Part shown: positions 9,801 to 18,564 of the stretch, one piece after another
Layout of the letters: every line of letters starts with the position of its first letter
Numbering within the stretch: position 1 is the first letter of the stretch
Source: Pseudomonadota bacterium
GTDB lineage: Bacteria; Pseudomonadota; Gammaproteobacteria; Burkholderiales; Ferrovaceae
Direction of reading: 5' to 3'
Assembly (NCBI GenBank): GCA_021850135.1
Contig: JAJZRV010000015.1
Coordinates: forward strand, 1 to 33,172
Length of the DNA: 33,172 bases
The notes under the pieces: generated by a model
The model's database searches: none
Seen by the model: only the letters and a program-made list of their open reading frames with translations
What the model was told of the DNA's origin: nothing
Position numbers and translations under genes: made by a program

Positions 9801-10397
9801 TCACTCGTCCGGCTCTTCGTATTCCTTGGGCAAGTGGTGGGCAATGCCCTTGTGGCAGTCAATACAGGTCTTGCCCTCTTCCTTGGCCTTCATATGCTTC
9901 TTGTAAGGCGTCTGCTTCTGAAGCTCGCTGCTCATGGCGTCGAAGTTGTGGCAATTGCGGCACTCGCGTGACCCGGAGGCTTTCATCCGCTCCCACTCTT
10001 CCGAAGCCAGACGCATGCGATTGGCTTCAAATTTTTCTCGGGTATCGATGACGCCGGTGATCTTGCCCCAGATCTCGAACGAGGCCTTGGCTTTCCGGAT
10101 CAGCTTGTGAGTCCAGTCCTTCGGCACATGACAGTCGGAGCACACCGCACGTACCCCGGTACGGTTGCTGTAGTGGATCGTTTCCTTGTATTCCTGGTAG
10201 ACGTTATCGCGCATTTCATGGCAGCTGATACAGAACGACAGGGTATTGGTTGCCTCCATGCCCGTATTGAAGCCGCCCCAGAATATGATGCCCCCAAAGA
10301 TGCCCACCACCAGCAAGGTGAGCACCGAGTACTTTGCGCTGGGTTTTCGGAGCGCGGACCAGCAGCGTTTGAGGGCGTTAGGTTTTTCGGCTTGCAT
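9801..10397 (-). CDS. mtoC: NapC/NirT/CymA-type tetraheme quinol-cytochrome c oxidoreductase
   Basis: A 198-residue membrane-anchored tetraheme cytochrome of the NapC/NirT family. A single N-terminal transmembrane helix (about residues 23-43) is followed by a periplasmic domain with four haem c motifs: CISCH (56-60), CSDCH (86-90), CRNCH (146-150) and CIDCH (178-182). Length and haem number match CymA/NapC, which exchange electrons between the quinone pool and periplasmic partners. It is the last gene of a minus-strand cluster mtoD-mtoA-mtoB-mtoC, the same order described for Sideroxydans lithotrophicus. In an iron oxidiser it would run in reverse, feeding electrons from periplasmic cytochromes into quinones; the direction cannot be read from sequence. 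GGAGAA precedes the ATG. Confidence 0.9.
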   Translation of the reverse strand: MQAEKPNALKRCWSALRKPSAKYSVLTLLVVGIFGGIIFWGGFNTGMEATNTLSFCISCHEMRDNVYQEYKETIHYSNRTGVRAVCSDCHVPKDWTHKLIRKAKASFEIWGKITGVIDTREKFEANRMRLASEEWERMKASGSRECRNCHNFDAMSSELQKQTPYKKHMKAKEEGKTCIDCHKGIAHHLPKEYEEPDE

Positions 10398-10431: not shown

Positions 10432-12840
10432 TTATCTGAAGCTGTAGTTATAGACCGCAAACACCGTGCTCGCACTGTAGCTTGGCGGCTGCTGATTGGT
10501 CGGCATCATGGACAGCGGCGTGTACCCCATCTGGTAAGCGTTGTAGTAGTAGTCGTTGGAGTCCAGGCGTTGGTAGATGAAGCCCATGACCACCTTGCTG
10601 ACGCGGTCCAGCGCATAATCGCCTGTCAGTTTGAGCTGAAGCAGTCTGCTGGAAATATCCGGCAAGGTACCGCAGGCATAACCGCTGTTGCTCGGCGTGG
10701 TGCAGGATGCGCTGACATAGTTGAGCGAAGTCGAGTAGGTGGACTGTCCGAGGGAGTACGTCAGATCGCCGGAAAGATTGAGCTTGCCGCCCAGCAATCC
10801 CCCCTGTTTGACGTTCAGCCCGGCCGTGTAGTCATCGTTGTCCAGGCTGTTCGACCAGGTTTGGGTTTGCGGTGCAAAGTACGTCGTGGTCGAGTGGTTC
10901 CATGCCGCATTGAGCAGTTCACGCTGCCTTTTCTGAACGCTCAGGTAGGCAGAAGCAGAACTCTTGTCGGAGAAACTGTAAGTGCCGTCCAGGTTGGTGC
11001 TCCAGGTCGTGCCGTTCTGCACCCCCAATGTCGAGTCGTCATAGTTGTCGTAGGTATAACGGCCATTCCAGCTCACGTTCAGCTTTTCGGACACCTGCCA
11101 GTTCACGCCTGCCTTGACCATCTGTTCCGTGCGCGCGGCATCGAAATAGGCGATGTAGCCCGGAAGCTCATAGCCTTCGCGGTTGGCCTGCATGGGGTTG
11201 TAGAACGAGCTGTTGACGGTGGCCGTACGGTTGGCGTAGGCGTAACCTACGTTCATGGTGAGGCTGTCCGTGGCCTTGAACTTGTAGTTGCCGAACAGCT
11301 TGTTTTCCTGGGTTTCCGGCACCTGGACGCAGGAGGCCGAGGTGTAGTACGCGGTGGCCGCCGTGGAAGGGCCGCCAGGCCCCGGGCCCTGGGCGTTATT
11401 GGACAGGGAGCTGTTGCACCAGCGGCGGATCTGCTCGAATTCGTAGCCCAGGTTGAGGTTCTGGCGACGGTCAATCCGGTAATCCCCGTCCACGTCGAAT
11501 TGCAGCTTGCTGTTGCTCATGGGGGTACTGACGGCTGTTTCCGCGCCACCACCCAGGTCGTAGAACTTGTAGACGTTCGCCGCGGTGCGATTGTCGCGTT
11601 CGTTGTACTTCACGCCGACATTGAGCGTCAGGTCCTTGGTGGTTTGATTGGTGAGCTTGAGATCGCCGTGGGTGATGATGACCAGCCCATTGAGCGAGGA
11701 CTGGGGCAACCCGCCTGCCTGCATCTGGTCGCTGTTGACGTAACTGTCGTTTTGCGTGTTGCGGCCATAGGAAAAACCGCCTGCCAGTTTGGTCGCGGAC
11801 GAGAAATTGTAGCCGCCCGTGAAGTTCAACTGATGGAACTGGTTGTCCGGCGGGGTGCTCAACATATCCACGGGGAAGGGCACTGCGGGCACCGTCCCGG
11901 TGACCGGGTTGGTGGCAGGGGGCGTGGCATTGCCGACGTAGGGGTTTGAGAAGCTGATGCCGTTGTACGCGTTCTGGAAGAGCGAACCGTAGTAGCTCCC
12001 GGTGAAATGCCCCTTTTCACCCACCCAGTTGAGCGCCATGTTGACGGTGTCCGTGGTGTAGTTGGTGGGGTTCATCAACATGGTGATGTTCTCGCCGCGG
12101 ACGTTGTAACCCGTCATTTTGATATTGACGTCGCTGCCCGAGGAGATCAGTTTGGCGCCGTCCTGGGCGAGGTGGTTGAATTCGAACTTGAAACTCCACT
12201 CCCGGTCGAGGTTGCGGCTGGCGCTCAGGCCGGTGTTTCTGCGGCCGGAAGAGACGTCGGTCGTATTGAAATACGACTGCTGGGCGGGAGTCAGGGCCTG
12301 GGTGCCATAGGGCGGGATGATGCCCCCTATGGCGGCAGGCTTGGTCTGGGTATTGATGACCCCGAAGGCCTGCGGCAGGAGGAACGAGTTCCCCCCCATG
12401 GCCCCCTGCATGGGCGTCTGATACGTGTCGGTGATGTAATGGCGCAGTTCGTCGTATTTGATACCCAGGCTCCAGCTGCCCTGCTCGCTGGCCGTCGCGC
12501 CGAGGGCGCGGGAGGTCAGACCCAGATCGGAGCCCTCGATGCCCCACCGCATGGTGCCGCTTTCCATGCCGTAGGAGTCGCCGCCGCGCACGCTGAAATT
12601 GCCCAGGATGTCCGCGCCGGAGGGGTGCAATCCCATGCCGCTGTATTCACCGTACTTGTAAGCGCCGCGTGCCGTATTGGCTGCGCCGATTTCGACGAAG
12701 TTGATGGGTTTGGTCAATGCGTCAATGTCTTCCTGGCCTTCCGCAAGGGTCAGCGCCGGCATGACTGCCATTGCTGCCAAAGCGCCTTGTACTGCAAGCG
12801 TCACCAAGCTGACGGCCAGATTCCTTTTAGATGCTTTCAT
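10432..12840 (-). CDS. mtoB: MtrB/PioB-family outer-membrane beta-barrel porin for a decaheme cytochrome
   Basis: An 802-residue outer-membrane protein of the MtrB/PioB family, the sheath that holds a decaheme cytochrome across the outer membrane. The N-terminus is a signal peptide (MKASKRNLAVSLVTLAVQGA, hydrophobic to about residue 33), and the early mature region NFVEIGAANTARGAYKYGEYSGM is the family's characteristic start. The rest alternates aromatic beta strands and polar loops (for example YDELRHYITDTYQTP, GGYNFSSATKLAGGFSYGR), ending VFAVYNYSFR. There is no N-terminal CxxC, which is present in Shewanella MtrB. The only cysteines are at about 475, 504, 713 and 723, in loops. It lies directly after the decaheme gene with 20 bases between; AGGGAG serves as ribosome site. 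Confidence 0.9.
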   Translation of the reverse strand: MKASKRNLAVSLVTLAVQGALAAMAVMPALTLAEGQEDIDALTKPINFVEIGAANTARGAYKYGEYSGMGLHPSGADILGNFSVRGGDSYGMESGTMRWGIEGSDLGLTSRALGATASEQGSWSLGIKYDELRHYITDTYQTPMQGAMGGNSFLLPQAFGVINTQTKPAAIGGIIPPYGTQALTPAQQSYFNTTDVSSGRRNTGLSASRNLDREWSFKFEFNHLAQDGAKLISSGSDVNIKMTGYNVRGENITMLMNPTNYTTDTVNMALNWVGEKGHFTGSYYGSLFQNAYNGISFSNPYVGNATPPATNPVTGTVPAVPFPVDMLSTPPDNQFHQLNFTGGYNFSSATKLAGGFSYGRNTQNDSYVNSDQMQAGGLPQSSLNGLVIITHGDLKLTNQTTKDLTLNVGVKYNERDNRTAANVYKFYDLGGGAETAVSTPMSNSKLQFDVDGDYRIDRRQNLNLGYEFEQIRRWCNSSLSNNAQGPGPGGPSTAATAYYTSASCVQVPETQENKLFGNYKFKATDSLTMNVGYAYANRTATVNSSFYNPMQANREGYELPGYIAYFDAARTEQMVKAGVNWQVSEKLNVSWNGRYTYDNYDDSTLGVQNGTTWSTNLDGTYSFSDKSSASAYLSVQKRQRELLNAAWNHSTTTYFAPQTQTWSNSLDNDDYTAGLNVKQGGLLGGKLNLSGDLTYSLGQSTYSTSLNYVSASCTTPSNSGYACGTLPDISSRLLQLKLTGDYALDRVSKVVMGFIYQRLDSNDYYYNAYQMGYTPLSMMPTNQQPPSYSASTVFAVYNYSFR

Positions 12841-12860: not shown

Positions 12861-13868
12861 CTATCTATGCAAAAAGGCGCCAGCCGGGCTGTTCGAGCCG
12901 TGAATCATGACGTGGCAGTTCATGCAGGCACGTCCAACGGCGTTGGAGTTCGGGGCCTTGGGATTGGTCGCGTTTGCGACAAAGCCTGCGCCGGCCTGGA
13001 TGCCCGCAGCATTGACGCCGTAGGGCGCCTGGCTGTTGTGGGGGCCGTCATGGCATTCGTCACACAGGAATGGCGCACGAGACTTCAGCAGCGGCGAGAT
13101 GTTGGAGCCATGCGGGGTATGGCAGTTCGTGCAGTCCTCGGTGGCGGGCTGGTGCTCCCACAGGAACGGGCCGCGTTTTTCTGCATGGCAGGTGTAGCAG
13201 GTTTCGGTGACGGTGTTTTTCCTGAGCATCCTTGGGCCTGCCGAGCCATGGGGATTGTGGCAGTCCGAACACACCACCTTGCCGATGTCGATCGGGTGGC
13301 TCGAAATCTTGTGGCTGTCTGCGCGCTGATCCTTGTGGCAGGTAAAGCACACCGCCGTCTGGGTTTTCTTCTGCTGCACCGGGTCGGCAGGCTGGTGCGT
13401 TTTGTGGCAATCGTTGCAGGCAAGCTGGTTTCTCTGGTGCAGGCCGCCATCCCAGTTGGTGCGTTCGGTGCCCTTGTGGCAGGTCAGACACTGGCTGGAG
13501 CGCAGCTTGTCATCCGAGACGCCGTAGACGCCTTTCTTGAAAACCACGTCGGGAGCGGCGCGCCCCTTAACGCTCGGATCACCCTTGAGGTGTTTTTCGC
13601 TCTCACCATGGCAGGACTGACAGGTGGGGGTGCGAGGATCGCCCTTGACCCCGTGCTTTGTCTGGTAGATGGACAGAATGGGCGTTTGCTCGCTTTCATC
13701 ATGGCAACGCGTGCAGAGGGCGTCCTGCATCAATGCATTCTTGGCAATGCCGGATTTGGCCTGCTCCTGTTTGGGCTGTGCGGGGGCGTCGGCGGCTTGG
13801 GCAGAAGCGAGCCAACACGCCCCAGCAAGCACCACGGTGAAAGCCATTAATCGCTGCACGAGTTTCAT
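12861..13868 (-). CDS. mtoA: Decaheme c-type cytochrome MtoA/MtrA/PioA family
   Basis: A 335-residue periplasmic/outer-membrane-embedded cytochrome with ten haem c motifs, all CxxCH: starting at residues 52, 83, 127, 151, 174, 200, 224, 246, 269 and 315. A signal peptide occupies roughly residues 1-25 (LMAFTVVLAGACWLASAQA). The length and haem count match MtrA (about 333 residues) and MtoA. Inside the MtoB barrel it conducts electrons through the outer membrane; purified MtoA of Sideroxydans has been shown to oxidise Fe(II). The long open frame continues upstream to 14087, but the signal peptide begins at the ATG at 13868, which has AGAGG nine bases before it. PioA has a long N-terminal extension that is absent here, so MtoA/MtrA is the better label. 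Confidence 0.93.
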   Translation of the reverse strand: MKLVQRLMAFTVVLAGACWLASAQAADAPAQPKQEQAKSGIAKNALMQDALCTRCHDESEQTPILSIYQTKHGVKGDPRTPTCQSCHGESEKHLKGDPSVKGRAAPDVVFKKGVYGVSDDKLRSSQCLTCHKGTERTNWDGGLHQRNQLACNDCHKTHQPADPVQQKKTQTAVCFTCHKDQRADSHKISSHPIDIGKVVCSDCHNPHGSAGPRMLRKNTVTETCYTCHAEKRGPFLWEHQPATEDCTNCHTPHGSNISPLLKSRAPFLCDECHDGPHNSQAPYGVNAAGIQAGAGFVANATNPKAPNSNAVGRACMNCHVMIHGSNSPAGAFLHR

Positions 13869-13992: not shown

Positions 13993-14340
13993 TCACAGGG
14001 AAAGAATCCACTGCACGAGATTCTTGATCTGATCCATATCCTTTGGCGGAGAGGTCTTGACGATCTTGTGTTCCTCTTCGTGACCATCGGGGAACTTGGC
14101 TTTCTCGCCAGAGGTGATGTGCTCGATCAGGCGGGCTTCTGCGTTGGCCTTGCCTTTGTACTTTTCAGCCACCTTCTTGTAGGCCGGGCCGTCCTTTTCC
14201 TTCTCGACGGAGTGGCATTTGAAGCAGTTGTTTTGTTTGGCCAGGGCTTTGGCTGCTTCGGCATCCACGGCATGGGCCAGGGGAGAAGCAAGGAAAATGG
14301 CTGCGGCAAGCAGGGAAGCAGGGGCGAATGGGCGTTTCAT
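13993..14340 (-). CDS. mtoD: Periplasmic class I monoheme cytochrome c (MtoD-like)
   Basis: A 115-residue cytochrome with a signal peptide (MKRPFAPASLLAAAIFLASPLAHA, cleavage probably after Ala24) and a single haem motif CFKCH at residues 39-43. The mature protein of about 91 residues has the class I pattern GPAYKKVAEKYKGK after the haem and a Met at 102 in SPPKDMDQIKNLVQWI, the likely sixth ligand, followed by the C-terminal helix. It is first in the mtoDABC cluster, the same position as MtoD of Sideroxydans lithotrophicus, a small periplasmic cytochrome proposed to carry electrons between MtoA and inner-membrane or other periplasmic acceptors. The start at 14340 was preferred to an upstream in-frame start at 14373, which would precede the signal peptide without purpose. 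Confidence 0.88.
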   Translation of the reverse strand: MKRPFAPASLLAAAIFLASPLAHAVDAEAAKALAKQNNCFKCHSVEKEKDGPAYKKVAEKYKGKANAEARLIEHITSGEKAKFPDGHEEEHKIVKTSPPKDMDQIKNLVQWILSL

Positions 14341-14416
14341 TTGGGTCCTCGATCTCAAGAAAGTCGTAATCAAAAAATCAGCCAGTAGAACAATTGCCTA
14401 GGGAACTTTGGGGGGG

Positions 14417-14461
14417 ATGTTATTCTTTTGCGGCGCGGCATTTTTTGACGTGCGTCAAAAA
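14417..14461 (-). promoter_or_regulatory. Crp/Fnr/FixK-type palindrome and putative -10 element of the mto operon
   Basis: A perfect inverted repeat TTTTTGACG-TG-CGTCAAAAA lies at 14442-14461. Its core TTGAC-N4-GTCAA (14445-14458) has the 5-4-5 geometry of Crp/Fnr-superfamily sites, close to the FNR consensus TTGAT-N4-ATCAA and to FixK/Dnr variants with C/G at the inner position. On the minus strand a TAACAT hexamer at 14422-14417 could be the -10 box; a start about seven bases further would be near 14410, placing the palindrome centre about 41 bases upstream, the usual class II activator position. The transcription start is inferred, not measured. Confidence 0.5.
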
Positions 14462-14717
14462 TGTAAAAATAAGTAACAATTTGTTTGAATATGTACTCTT
14501 TGAGACACATGCATGGGTCTGCGAACCGCCAATGGCCCAAAGAAGGCGGAATAAAGGCCCTTTCTGGAAAGTCTGGGGAAGATCGCCAGATCGCACTGAT
14601 CCCGGCGACTGCGGCCCGGGATGGGGATAAACTGCGTCTTCTGGGAGGTTTCCGATAAATCCGGCGCTGTGCTGCGCCACGGCATGGCGGTCCGTCGAAC
14701 GTCGGGGAGACAGCGGA
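14462..14717 (+). other. Structured leader region upstream of the GGDEF-EAL gene
   Basis: No gene is visible in this stretch. Its first 50 bases are AT-rich (likely promoter DNA), then come three consecutive potential hairpins: CCGCC (14526-14530) with GGCGG (14545-14549); TCTGG (14572-14576) with CCAGA (14586-14590); and ATCCCGG (14599-14605) with CCGGGAT (14616-14622). GGGGAGA near 14704-14710 is the ribosome site for the gene at 14718. If transcription starts in the AT-rich part, the leader is about 200 bases long and structured. I do not recognise a known riboswitch class; it lacks the c-di-GMP-I aptamer core that I would expect to spot. Confidence 0.35.
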
Positions 14718-17516
14718 ATGCATTTGAAGCACCCAACCCGTCACGCAGTGACGCGATATGGCGTTGCCCTTTTTCTCGTGGTCCTGGCGGCGGGTCTGCG
14801 CAGATGGCCCCTGCAAATGCTCGGGGCGGATATGGAGTGGCTGACGTTCTACCCGGCGGTGATGTTTGCCGCAATCTATGGCGGGCTGTATCCCGGCATC
14901 GTGGCGATGGTGCTGTCCTGCATCGTGGTCACTTTTTTCTGGCCCGTCATCACCAGGACGCCCCTGGAAATGAATTTTCCGTACTGGCTCGGCCTGTCCG
15001 TCTTTGGGCTGAATGGCGGGCTGGTCTCCGGTTTTGCCGAAGTTGCATTCCGGGCGCAAGTGCGCGCAGTCAAGACGCAGGAACAGGTCCGTGCAGCGGC
15101 GCAGGCGCATGCGCTGTTTGAGCACTCGCCCACGGCCATGGTCTCCATCCATCCGGTTCAGGGGCGCATTCTCCAGGCCAACCGCGTTGCATTGGATATG
15201 TTCGGCTACGATGCCGCGGAAATTCTGACGCTCTCCATCGCCGACCTGACGCATCCGGAAGACCTGGCAGAATCGGAACGGCGTCACAAGATGCTTTTTA
15301 CAGGGCAGGCGCAGCAACTGCATTTCGAAAAGCGCTACCTCAGGAAAGACGGCAGCAGCTTCTGGGCGGAAACCTCCGTTTCCTCACTGAAGGACGGTCA
15401 GGGCGAAGTCGGGTTACTGGTCGGCAACATCGTGGACATCACCGAGCGCAGGAGAGCCGCACAGACGCTGAAAAGGGAAAGCGAAAAAAACGCGCTCCTC
15501 CTGCACAATGCCAGTGATGGCATTCATATCCTCGATGCGCAGGGCCATATCATCGAAGCCAGCGACTCGTTTTGTGCCATGCTGGGCTACCGGCGCGACG
15601 AGGTGATCGGGATGAATGTCTCCGGCTGGGATGCCCAGTGGGCTGACGCGGAACTGGCCCAGCTCGTCCGGCAACGGCATGCGCAGGAAGGGCGTTCGCA
15701 GTTCGAAACCCGGCACCGGCGCAAGGACGGAACCATCTTCGATGTGGAAGTCAGCGTGTTTCCCCTCGAGCTGGATGGCAACCCCATCCTGTTCTGTTCA
15801 TCTCGCGACATCACGGAGCGGAAAAAAACCGAGGCCGAGGTGCAGGTTGCCGCAACCGCTTTCGAGTCCCAGGAAGGCATGCTGATCACGGACGCAGACG
15901 GCGTGATTTTGCGGGTGAACCACGCCTTTACCGACATCACGGGGTACAGCGCCGAGGAAGTCATCGGCAGGAATCCGCGTCTGCTGAGCTCGGGCCGGCA
16001 TGATGCAAATTTTTATGCCGCCATGTGGAAAAGCATTCATGGCTCGAATATCTGGAAAGGGGAGATCTGGAACCGGCGCAAGAATGGAGAGGTTTATCCG
16101 GAGTATCTCACCATCACTGCCGTGAAAAATCCCCGGGGCGTCGTCACGAATTATGTGGCGACACTCACCGACATCACGTTGCGCAAGAACTCGGAAGAGG
16201 AGATCAAGCATCTCGCGTTTTTCGACCCCTTGACCCGGTTGCCCAACCGGCGCCTGCTCACCGACCGACTGCAGCAGGCCCTGTCTTCCAGCGCCCGCAG
16301 CGGGCACGCCGGGGCGCTCCTGTTCATCGATCTGGACAACTTCAAGACGCTCAACGACACGTTGGGTCATGGGGTGGGGGACGTCCTGTTGCAGCAGGTG
16401 GCACAGCGGCTGGCTTCCTGCGTCCGCGAGGGAGACACCGTGGCACGCATCGGCGGCGACGAATTCGTGGTCATGCTGGAAGACCTGAGCAGCCTGGACG
16501 TGGATGCCGCCACCCAGACGGAGACTGTCGGCGGAAAAATCCTTGCGGCCCTGAGTCAACCTTACGCACTTCCCACCCAGGATTACCGTAGCAGCAGCAG
16601 CATCGGTGCAACCCTGTTCAGCGGCCATAAGCAGGGGATCGAGGTGCTGCTGAAACAGGCCGACATTGCCATGTATCAGGCCAAGAAAGCCGGGCGCAAC
16701 ACGCTGCGCTTCTTCGATCCGCAGATGCAGGAAAGCGTCACTGCCCGCGCGGTCCTGGAGGAGGAGTTGCGCAGGGCGATCGAACTCGGGCAATTCCATC
16801 TGTACTACCAGATCCAGACGGATAGCCTTCATCGTGCAACGGGCGCAGAAGCACTGATCCGCTGGGCCCACCCGGAGCGCGGCGTCATCGCACCAGGGCA
16901 TTTCATTGCCCTGGCGGAAGAAACGGGCCTGATCCTGCCCATCGGGAAGTGGGTGCTGGAGGCCGCGTGCGCCCAGCTCAGGATCTGGCAGGACTCGGAT
17001 CTGACGCGCCATCTCGTCCTGTCCGTCAACATCAGCGCCAGGCAATTCCGTCAGGCCGATTTTGTGGCGCAAGTGGAGGCTACCGTCCGCCACCATGCCA
17101 TCCATCCGGATATGTTGAAATTCGAACTGACGGAAAGCACCTTGCTGGAAAACATCGAGGAAACGATTGCGACGATGAATGCCCTGAAGGCCATCGGGGT
17201 CCGGTTGTCGCTGGACGATTTCGGCACGGGTTACTCGTCGTTACAATACCTCAAGCGTCTGCCGCTCAACCAGCTCAAGATCGATCAGTCGTTCGTACGC
17301 GATCTGGCCGTGGACAGCAGTGATAAAGCCATTGTCCGAACCATCGTCGCCATGGCGCAAAGCCTGAACCTGGACGTCATTGCCGAGGGCGTTGAAACCG
17401 AGGAACAGCGTCAGTTTCTCCTGAGCACGGGATGCACGCATTACCAGGGGTATCTGTTCGGAAAACCGTTGCCGATCGGACCATTTGAAAACGTATTGAA
17501 GCAGGTTCAAGCCTAG
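14718..17516 (+). CDS. Membrane-bound PAS-GGDEF-EAL cyclic-di-GMP enzyme
   Basis: A 932-residue signalling protein. The N-terminus (about residues 12-115) is hydrophobic with roughly four transmembrane segments resembling the KdpD-type DUF4118 domain. Three PAS domains follow (about 130-250, 258-375, 378-495). The GGDEF motif at residue 579 is intact (ARIGGDEFVVML) and has an RxxD inhibitory site (REGD) five residues before it. The EAL domain (about 675-925) is intact: EALIRW at 711, VNISARQF, ELTEST, DDFGTGYSSL, LKIDQSFVRDL, IAEGVETEEQ and THYQGYLFGKPL carry the metal and catalytic residues. It could therefore both make and degrade c-di-GMP; the net activity is unknown. It is divergent from the mto operon and followed by a PaiB-like gene after 10 bases. 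Confidence 0.93.
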   Translation: MHLKHPTRHAVTRYGVALFLVVLAAGLRRWPLQMLGADMEWLTFYPAVMFAAIYGGLYPGIVAMVLSCIVVTFFWPVITRTPLEMNFPYWLGLSVFGLNGGLVSGFAEVAFRAQVRAVKTQEQVRAAAQAHALFEHSPTAMVSIHPVQGRILQANRVALDMFGYDAAEILTLSIADLTHPEDLAESERRHKMLFTGQAQQLHFEKRYLRKDGSSFWAETSVSSLKDGQGEVGLLVGNIVDITERRRAAQTLKRESEKNALLLHNASDGIHILDAQGHIIEASDSFCAMLGYRRDEVIGMNVSGWDAQWADAELAQLVRQRHAQEGRSQFETRHRRKDGTIFDVEVSVFPLELDGNPILFCSSRDITERKKTEAEVQVAATAFESQEGMLITDADGVILRVNHAFTDITGYSAEEVIGRNPRLLSSGRHDANFYAAMWKSIHGSNIWKGEIWNRRKNGEVYPEYLTITAVKNPRGVVTNYVATLTDITLRKNSEEEIKHLAFFDPLTRLPNRRLLTDRLQQALSSSARSGHAGALLFIDLDNFKTLNDTLGHGVGDVLLQQVAQRLASCVREGDTVARIGGDEFVVMLEDLSSLDVDAATQTETVGGKILAALSQPYALPTQDYRSSSSIGATLFSGHKQGIEVLLKQADIAMYQAKKAGRNTLRFFDPQMQESVTARAVLEEELRRAIELGQFHLYYQIQTDSLHRATGAEALIRWAHPERGVIAPGHFIALAEETGLILPIGKWVLEAACAQLRIWQDSDLTRHLVLSVNISARQFRQADFVAQVEATVRHHAIHPDMLKFELTESTLLENIEETIATMNALKAIGVRLSLDDFGTGYSSLQYLKRLPLNQLKIDQSFVRDLAVDSSDKAIVRTIVAMAQSLNLDVIAEGVETEEQRQFLLSTGCTHYQGYLFGKPLPIGPFENVLKQVQA

Positions 17517-18526: not shown

Positions 18527-18564
18527 CATGAAAAAGCCCCGCAAGGTTGCGGGGCTTTTTCATG
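18527..18564. terminator. Strong bidirectional intrinsic terminator
   Basis: A perfect 38-base palindrome: arms of 18 bases (CATGAAAAAGCCCCGCAA and its complement) around a two-base centre GG. In RNA it forms a GC-rich stem GCCCCGCA/TGCGGGGC flanked by A5 and T5 runs, so it ends transcription on the plus strand after the Gln-rich gene and could act on the minus strand also. It separates the c-di-GMP/PaiB/Gln-rich group from srkA. Confidence 0.9.

Follow-up and report, generated by a model that had tools for sequence, protein, structure and literature searches.

The window analysed here, a stretch of 33,172 nucleotides, is contig C21 of a 1.78-Mb Ferrovaceae MAG bin (G000) that is 87.5% complete. 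Its minus strand carries an operon in which mtoD is followed by genes for the decahaem cytochrome MtoA, the MtoB barrel and a NapC/NirT-family cytochrome, and a palindrome lies in the promoter of this mtoD-mtoA-mtoB-cymA operon. The best solved relative of the mtoD product is 4xxl, which we take to be MtoD of Sideroxydans. The features of the locus are as follows.

14442 to 14461, no strand: candidate FNR-type operator, the palindrome TTTTTGACG-TG-CGTCAAAAA, with the core TTGACGTGCGTCAA at 14445 to 14458
13993 to 14340, minus strand: mtoD, which opens the operon and encodes a monohaem c-type cytochrome
12861 to 13868, minus strand: mtoA, DmsE/MtoA-family decahaem cytochrome
10432 to 12840, minus strand: mtoB, MtrB/PioB outer-membrane barrel
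9801 to 10397, minus strand: cymA/imoA, NapC/NirT-family cytochrome
14718 to 17516, plus strand: divergent gene for a PAS-GGDEF-EAL protein, its putative control by the operator being unsupported

The original prediction pointed out that the palindrome also lies upstream of the divergent c-di-GMP gene, but control of that gene is unsupported. The GGDEF/EAL gene starts 257 bases beyond the end of the site, there is no conserved block near it, and conservation with the sister species (G004) falls off beyond about position 14500, toward the divergent gene. Furthermore, in a Ferrovum sp. MAG that is 99% complete (G008) the divergent neighbor of mtoD is a gene for a TPR protein. On these grounds we rejected operator control of the GGDEF/EAL gene.

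Direct reading of positions 14442 to 14461 gave TTTTTGACG TG CGTCAAAAA, two nine-base arms around a two-base spacer, confirming the 20-base perfect inverted repeat described originally. Perfect repeats as long as this are not rare in themselves, and the palindrome alone is unconvincing. A scan of the window (arms of at least 9 bases, spacers of 0 to 8, nested frames counted) yielded nine frames at four distinct places, with the palindrome among them, and ten Markov controls of the window yielded 0 to 4 frames each. The strongest inverted repeat in the window lies elsewhere, at 18527-18564, and is a terminator-like, 18-base perfect inverted repeat with a 2-base spacer. The core, TTGACGTGCGTCAA, is the single mismatch-free occurrence of TTGAC-N4-GTCAA in the window. 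The CRP operator consensus is TGTGA-N6-TCACA, and identity as a CRP operator was rejected on the half-sites, which are TTGAC and GTCAA. The core is two-fold symmetric and agrees at 8 of 10 positions with the FNR consensus TTGAT-N4-ATCAA, as expected of an FNR box; that TTGAC half-sites fit the Escherichia coli consensus less well than TTGAT half-sites does count against FNR.

The genome-wide motif search that had been suggested gave a divided answer. The strict motif TTGAC-N4-GTCAA stands at background in the whole bin (three occurrences versus two for the reversed control pattern), and because of this its count proves nothing about an operator and was discarded as proof. The wider FNR-type motif TTGAY-N4-RTCAA, however, is enriched in our bin (17 versus 7 for the control) and in two near-complete relatives, the sister species (20 versus 3) and the Ferrovum MAG (16 versus 3), and it precedes ccoN and hemN. 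Most of these sites are intergenic (12/17, 15/20 and 10/16, respectively), while noncoding DNA makes up about 13% of the stretches fetched, a bias with binomial probabilities of 4e-9 to 3e-6. Genes for this comparison were called with a purpose-written script that scored codon use. By always choosing the earliest start codon, the script scored as coding a site on contig C14 of our bin (L009) that lies 65 bases upstream of the Cyc2 start; counting this site as intergenic gives 13/17.

Stronger evidence comes from comparison with related promoters. In the sister species the core at the same place is TTGATGTGCATCAA, a canonical FNR box with a 10/10 match to the consensus. It differs from the 14-mer in the window at only two positions, 5 and 10, where the C/T and G/A changes are symmetric, and such a paired change is typical of operators bound by dimeric proteins. 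The Ferrovum MAG has TTGATCTGCATCAA upstream of mtoD, likewise a 10/10 match. In all three species a TAnnAT hexamer follows the box at 22 nt, TAACAT in the window (minus strand, 14422-14417) and TAATAT in the other two. A distance of 22 nt between box and hexamer places the center of the box at -41.5 if +1 is 14410, and the arrangement therefore has the sequence features of a class II FNR promoter. This agrees with the original prediction, in which TAACAT on the minus strand put the palindrome about 41 bases before the start. The promoter features are as follows.

14417 to 14422, minus strand: TAACAT, the predicted -10 hexamer, following the operator core at 22 nt
14410, minus strand: predicted transcription start (+1), placed from the box-hexamer spacing, with the mtoD ATG after a leader of about 70 nt
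14470 to 14487, no strand: A+T-rich block TAAGTAACAATTTGTTTG, conserved with the sister species, centered at about -70

The same spacing recurs beyond these three promoters. We took FNR-type sites oriented to a gene start 30 to 200 nt away, from the three genomes together with cyc2 and mto sites elsewhere, and scored TAnnnT at offsets from 14 to 33. Offset 22 accounts for 14 of the 48 sites, and each of the 19 other offsets accounts for 0 to 2. Because some of the sites are related, for example those of G025 and G028, the 14 are not independent events; the peak is clear despite this kinship. Taken together, the symmetric change, the 22-nt spacing in three promoters and the peak among the 48 sites support the proposal of a Crp/Fnr-type operator in a class II position. 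The intergenic region itself measures 377 bp, versus 375 bp in the sister species, and aligns at 61% identity overall. Conservation is concentrated at about 14412-14488, with 14 to 18 identical positions per 20 bases versus 9 to 15 elsewhere in the region. The A+T-rich block within this segment may be a UP element or a site for a second regulator. It includes AACAATTTGTT, an 11-base inverted repeat (AACAA-T-TTGTT, 14475-14485) that is conserved with the sister species and centered at about -70 from the predicted start.

The host encodes a suitable regulator. An FNR orthologue (L005:2730-3485) scores 233.6 bits against NF008365 (Fnr; cutoff, 228), and its four cluster cysteines and E-T-V-S-R helix align with those of the solved FNR 5cvr, so that the genome carrying the palindrome also carries an FNR with the E-x-x-S-R recognition helix. 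Orthologues were found in 32/32 Ferrovaceae genomes searched. The same protein reaches only 85 bits against a FixK cutoff of 300 and does not qualify as FixK, and FNR fits better than FixK or Dnr as the regulator.

Other boxes in the bin precede ccoN (TIGR00780) and hemN (TIGR00538), and the Ferrovum MAG has three boxes between hemN and cydA. Unexpectedly, a box in the bin also precedes the gene for a protein with the heme and porin pattern of Cyc2. The published Cyc2 signature is AXPXFAR[QK][TY] plus CXXCH (available text of PMC8406198), and the boxed protein, with AVPLYARQT-GQK-CVACH, fits it except for Y in place of F. It matches no Pfam or NCBIfam model, shares 60 to 64% identity with several canonical Cyc2 copies from Ferrovaceae and has homologues in 29/32 genomes of the family. 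A tree was built from 37 Cyc2 sequences, several of them partial; in it, nine rows with the variant motif A-[VI]-P-[LVI]-Y-A-R-Q-T-G-[QE] fall into two neighboring groups of three and six. A perfect box precedes seven of these nine paralogue members, and all seven boxes have TAGATT, TAGACT or TAAAAT at 22 nt. The boxed members are listed here.

L012:1501-1514 and 1585-2982 (G000:C27); L184 (G004); L213, L214, L239, L243 and L248: boxed Cyc2 paralogue loci

Two results run the other way: the remaining two members (G001 and G002) have a 9-of-10 site only, and the canonical Cyc2 clade also has three perfect boxes in 21 rows (G000 C14, G021 C122 and G006 C1a), TAnnnT at 22 nt being absent at all three. 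Two more distant g7 sequences (G027 C26 and G024 C92) are also boxed, without TAnnnT at 22 nt. These figures come from 42 loci examined out of 49 match rows, the other seven rows being mostly short fragments. Among the 42, the heme motif was not found by pattern in five (G028 C15, G010, G027 C105, G024 C85 and G015 C171), G011 C96 has no start, and the upstream stretches of G009 (64 bases) and G008 (228 bases) are short. As a separate observation, a TPR-protein gene similar to the one divergent to mtoD in the Ferrovum MAG (L056:7870-8619) is divergent to the boxed cyc2 in our bin (left gene of L012) and in the sister species (left gene of L184), and in all three genomes an FNR box lies between the TPR-protein gene and an iron-oxidation gene.

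From the sequence evidence we consider it very likely that the palindrome is an FNR operator serving class II activation of mtoD-mtoA-mtoB-cymA at low oxygen. At low oxygen the [4Fe-4S] cluster of the host FNR would stay intact, and the protein would dimerize, bind the palindrome centered at -41.5 and, in class II fashion, contact the RNA polymerase that occupies the -10 hexamer TAACAT, switching the operon on. A rise in oxygen would destroy the cluster, and mto transcription would fall. Since the same arrangement precedes the second Cyc2 paralogue and ccoN, both conduits and the high-affinity cbb3 oxidase would probably be raised together at low oxygen. The oxygen- or redox-dependent control of the electron conduit put forward originally is supported by the bona fide FNR gene, the conserved spacing and the boxes before ccoN and hemN.

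Four other explanations were weighed. One accepts the operator and concerns physiology: the FNR box might serve respiration of Fe(III) or another anaerobic respiration, with the Mto-like conduit working outward. FNR is classically an activator of anaerobic respiration, in favor of this idea, and sequence is a poor guide to what such genes do, according to the available text of PMC13390463. We nevertheless regard an outward conduit as unlikely, as no MtrC-like or DMSO reductase family protein was detected among the nine window proteins scanned and the same promoter type stands before the Cyc2 paralogue and ccoN, a combination pointing to Fe(II) oxidation with little oxygen.

Alternatively, the site might be bound by another Crp/Fnr protein and the signal might be something other than oxygen sensed by FNR. 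The bin has three PF00325 proteins, FNR and the products of L004 and L006, the latter two with an N terminus that is Cys-rich in a manner unlike that of FNR; they or a Dnr/Nnr-like NO sensor would be the candidates. The L004 and L006 products have an E-E-T-V-S-R helix of the E-x-x-S-R class, which should read TTGAY-N4-RTCAA, and both genes adjoin genes that we recognize as, presumably, NrfD-like. Against these candidates, FNR is present throughout the family genomes searched, and the box targets include hemN and ccoN. The Ferrovum MAG keeps the mtoD box, yet FNR is the sole PF00325 protein encoded there, and the helix of the other strong HTH_Crp_2 protein is the CRP-like RESVSR. Because the box is retained there without an L004/L006-type paralogue, FNR appears to be the simplest binder of the mto box, and a different Crp/Fnr protein seems decidedly improbable.

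A third possibility is a repressor operator. A repressor bound at the palindrome would cover a possible promoter, TTTACA-16-AAAAAT (minus strand, 14467-14440), that a simple promoter scan matched at 9 of 12 positions; chance alone would give about 0.5 matches of this quality in the region, however, and this one is not kept in the Ferrovum MAG, whereas TAnnAT at 22 nt is kept in three species and 14 of the 48 sites have TAnnnT at the same distance, all of which makes a repressor operator very improbable. That the palindrome arose by chance or forms an mRNA hairpin, in either case with no part in regulation, as the repeats in the Markov controls and the lack of enrichment of the strict motif might suggest, is scarcely credible given the symmetric substitution, the conserved block, the fixed spacing and the boxes before mtoD in other genomes, and the palindrome would not be in the transcript, because the predicted +1 lies downstream of it.

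Of 79 related mto loci, 16 were dropped before counting, 12 without mtoD upstream of mtoA and 4 with no start or fewer than 120 bases upstream; these 4 include L078, the record of the Ferrovum MAG, whose own copy has the box. A perfect box lies upstream of mtoD in 9 of the 63 usable loci, compared with 1.3% of stretches drawn at random from these loci, and 11 control patterns score 0/63 each. The nine boxed loci, which include the sister species (L071), are scattered over the MtoA tree, from Ferrovaceae to Methylophilaceae, Dokdonella and Oleiagrimonas, and none of the eight boxed loci of the 63-locus set outside the genus of the window (the Ferrovum record not counted) has TAnnnT at exactly 22 nt. 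The occurrence of the box across other mto loci is therefore sporadic. The refuting test proposed originally, a lack of conservation upstream of orthologous mto operons, gave a mixed outcome: the box is conserved within the Ferrovaceae genera g1 and g5 and missing from 54 of the 63 loci, and we rejected general conservation. Seven other loci (L084, L107, L110, L111, L112, L113 and L114) have a different palindrome upstream of mtoD, CCTAT-N4/5-ATAGG, and no mto locus has both it and the FNR box. In L107 and L055 (the G016 copy of L084), the two loci checked, the region upstream of mtoD encodes a PAS/dCache histidine kinase together with a LuxR-type response regulator. The same conduit thus seems to answer to different regulators from one lineage to another. 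The bin also contains a second mto operon (L050, G000:C63), which is 98.2% identical over 3,752 bases to that of G028, a genome of another genus. Because the bin's own C14 cyc2 is only 75 to 80% identical to two genomes of that genus, contig C63 is probably mis-binned, although it is possibly a recent transfer, and for this reason we did not use it to argue for dual control within a single cell.

The proposed switch resembles known ones. The available text of PMC3050613 places pioABC of Rhodopseudomonas palustris TIE-1 under FixK, with a TTGA-N6-TCAA box, and reports anaerobic expression; as at mto, a Crp/Fnr-family class II box precedes a PioAB/MtoAB-type outer-membrane conduit. In contrast, the pioABC regulator is an alphaproteobacterial FixK under FixLJ, acting at boxes centered at -44.5 and -137.5 in a photoferrotroph (PMC3050613), while Ferrovaceae mto has a single box at -41.5 and an FNR whose cluster cysteines would let it sense oxygen directly. 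We therefore rejected FixK-pio control proper, similar as it is in its working, since the L005 regulator scores as Fnr and not as FixK. A second parallel is cld of Ideonella dechloratans, where FNR was shown to be required; one half-site of its box, TTGACTTAAATCAA, is TTGAC (available text of PMC7349173). Like mto, cld and the synthetic FF-41.5 promoter have TTGAY-N4-RTCAA at -41.5 and a -10 hexamer at -12 to -7 (available parts of PMC7349173 and PMC4505428); cld differs in its target genes and in that its FNR dependence was established by experiment, that of mto being predicted.

The mto operon of Sideroxydans lithotrophicus ES-1 has the same genes, mtoD, mtoA, mtoB and cymA/imoA, and MtoA and CymA/ImoA were detected there with magnetite but not with Fe(II)-citrate, oxygen being 2% in both cases (available text of PMC12016527). 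That text contains neither "regulat" nor "promoter" and presents no work on promoters or regulators. PMC13390463 describes Mto and Cyc2 in Ferrovaceae; its available text has no occurrence of "regulat" or "FNR" and, for the choice between Cyc2 and Mto, suggests only different geochemical or environmental conditions. FNR does not occur in the available text of PMC8805035, which mentions mtoA, mtoB and promoter, and fnr occurs only within a reference in that of PMC7236192. No paper joining Sideroxydans, FNR and mto was found in the literature searched, most subscription journals lying outside it. The best reading is that low-oxygen activation of mto by FNR would be a known kind of switch, as in FixK control of pioABC, acting on a target set, Mto plus a Cyc2 isoform, for which we found no report.

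Ferrovaceae are a betaproteobacterial family, mostly nonphototrophic. Because the same type of box, at the same promoter distance, precedes a second iron-oxidation gene, our data suggest that iron-oxidation machinery in this family is switched by oxygen level. An evenly balanced proposal, for which we see as much against as in favor, is that FNR runs a low-oxygen iron-oxidation set in Ferrovaceae, in which the duplicated Cyc2 isoform, Mto in some species and the cbb3 oxidase would be class II targets, and canonical Cyc2, mostly without such a promoter, would be the ordinary oxic enzyme, so that oxygen would decide which of the outer-membrane iron oxidases the cell produces. With a conserved class II FNR promoter before both mto and the Cyc2 paralogue, the choice between Cyc2 and Mto becomes directly testable, with oxygen as the variable. 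Set beside FixK and pioABC, the Ferrovaceae case suggests that low-oxygen control of iron conduits by Crp/Fnr-type regulators arose, or was kept, in separate lineages.
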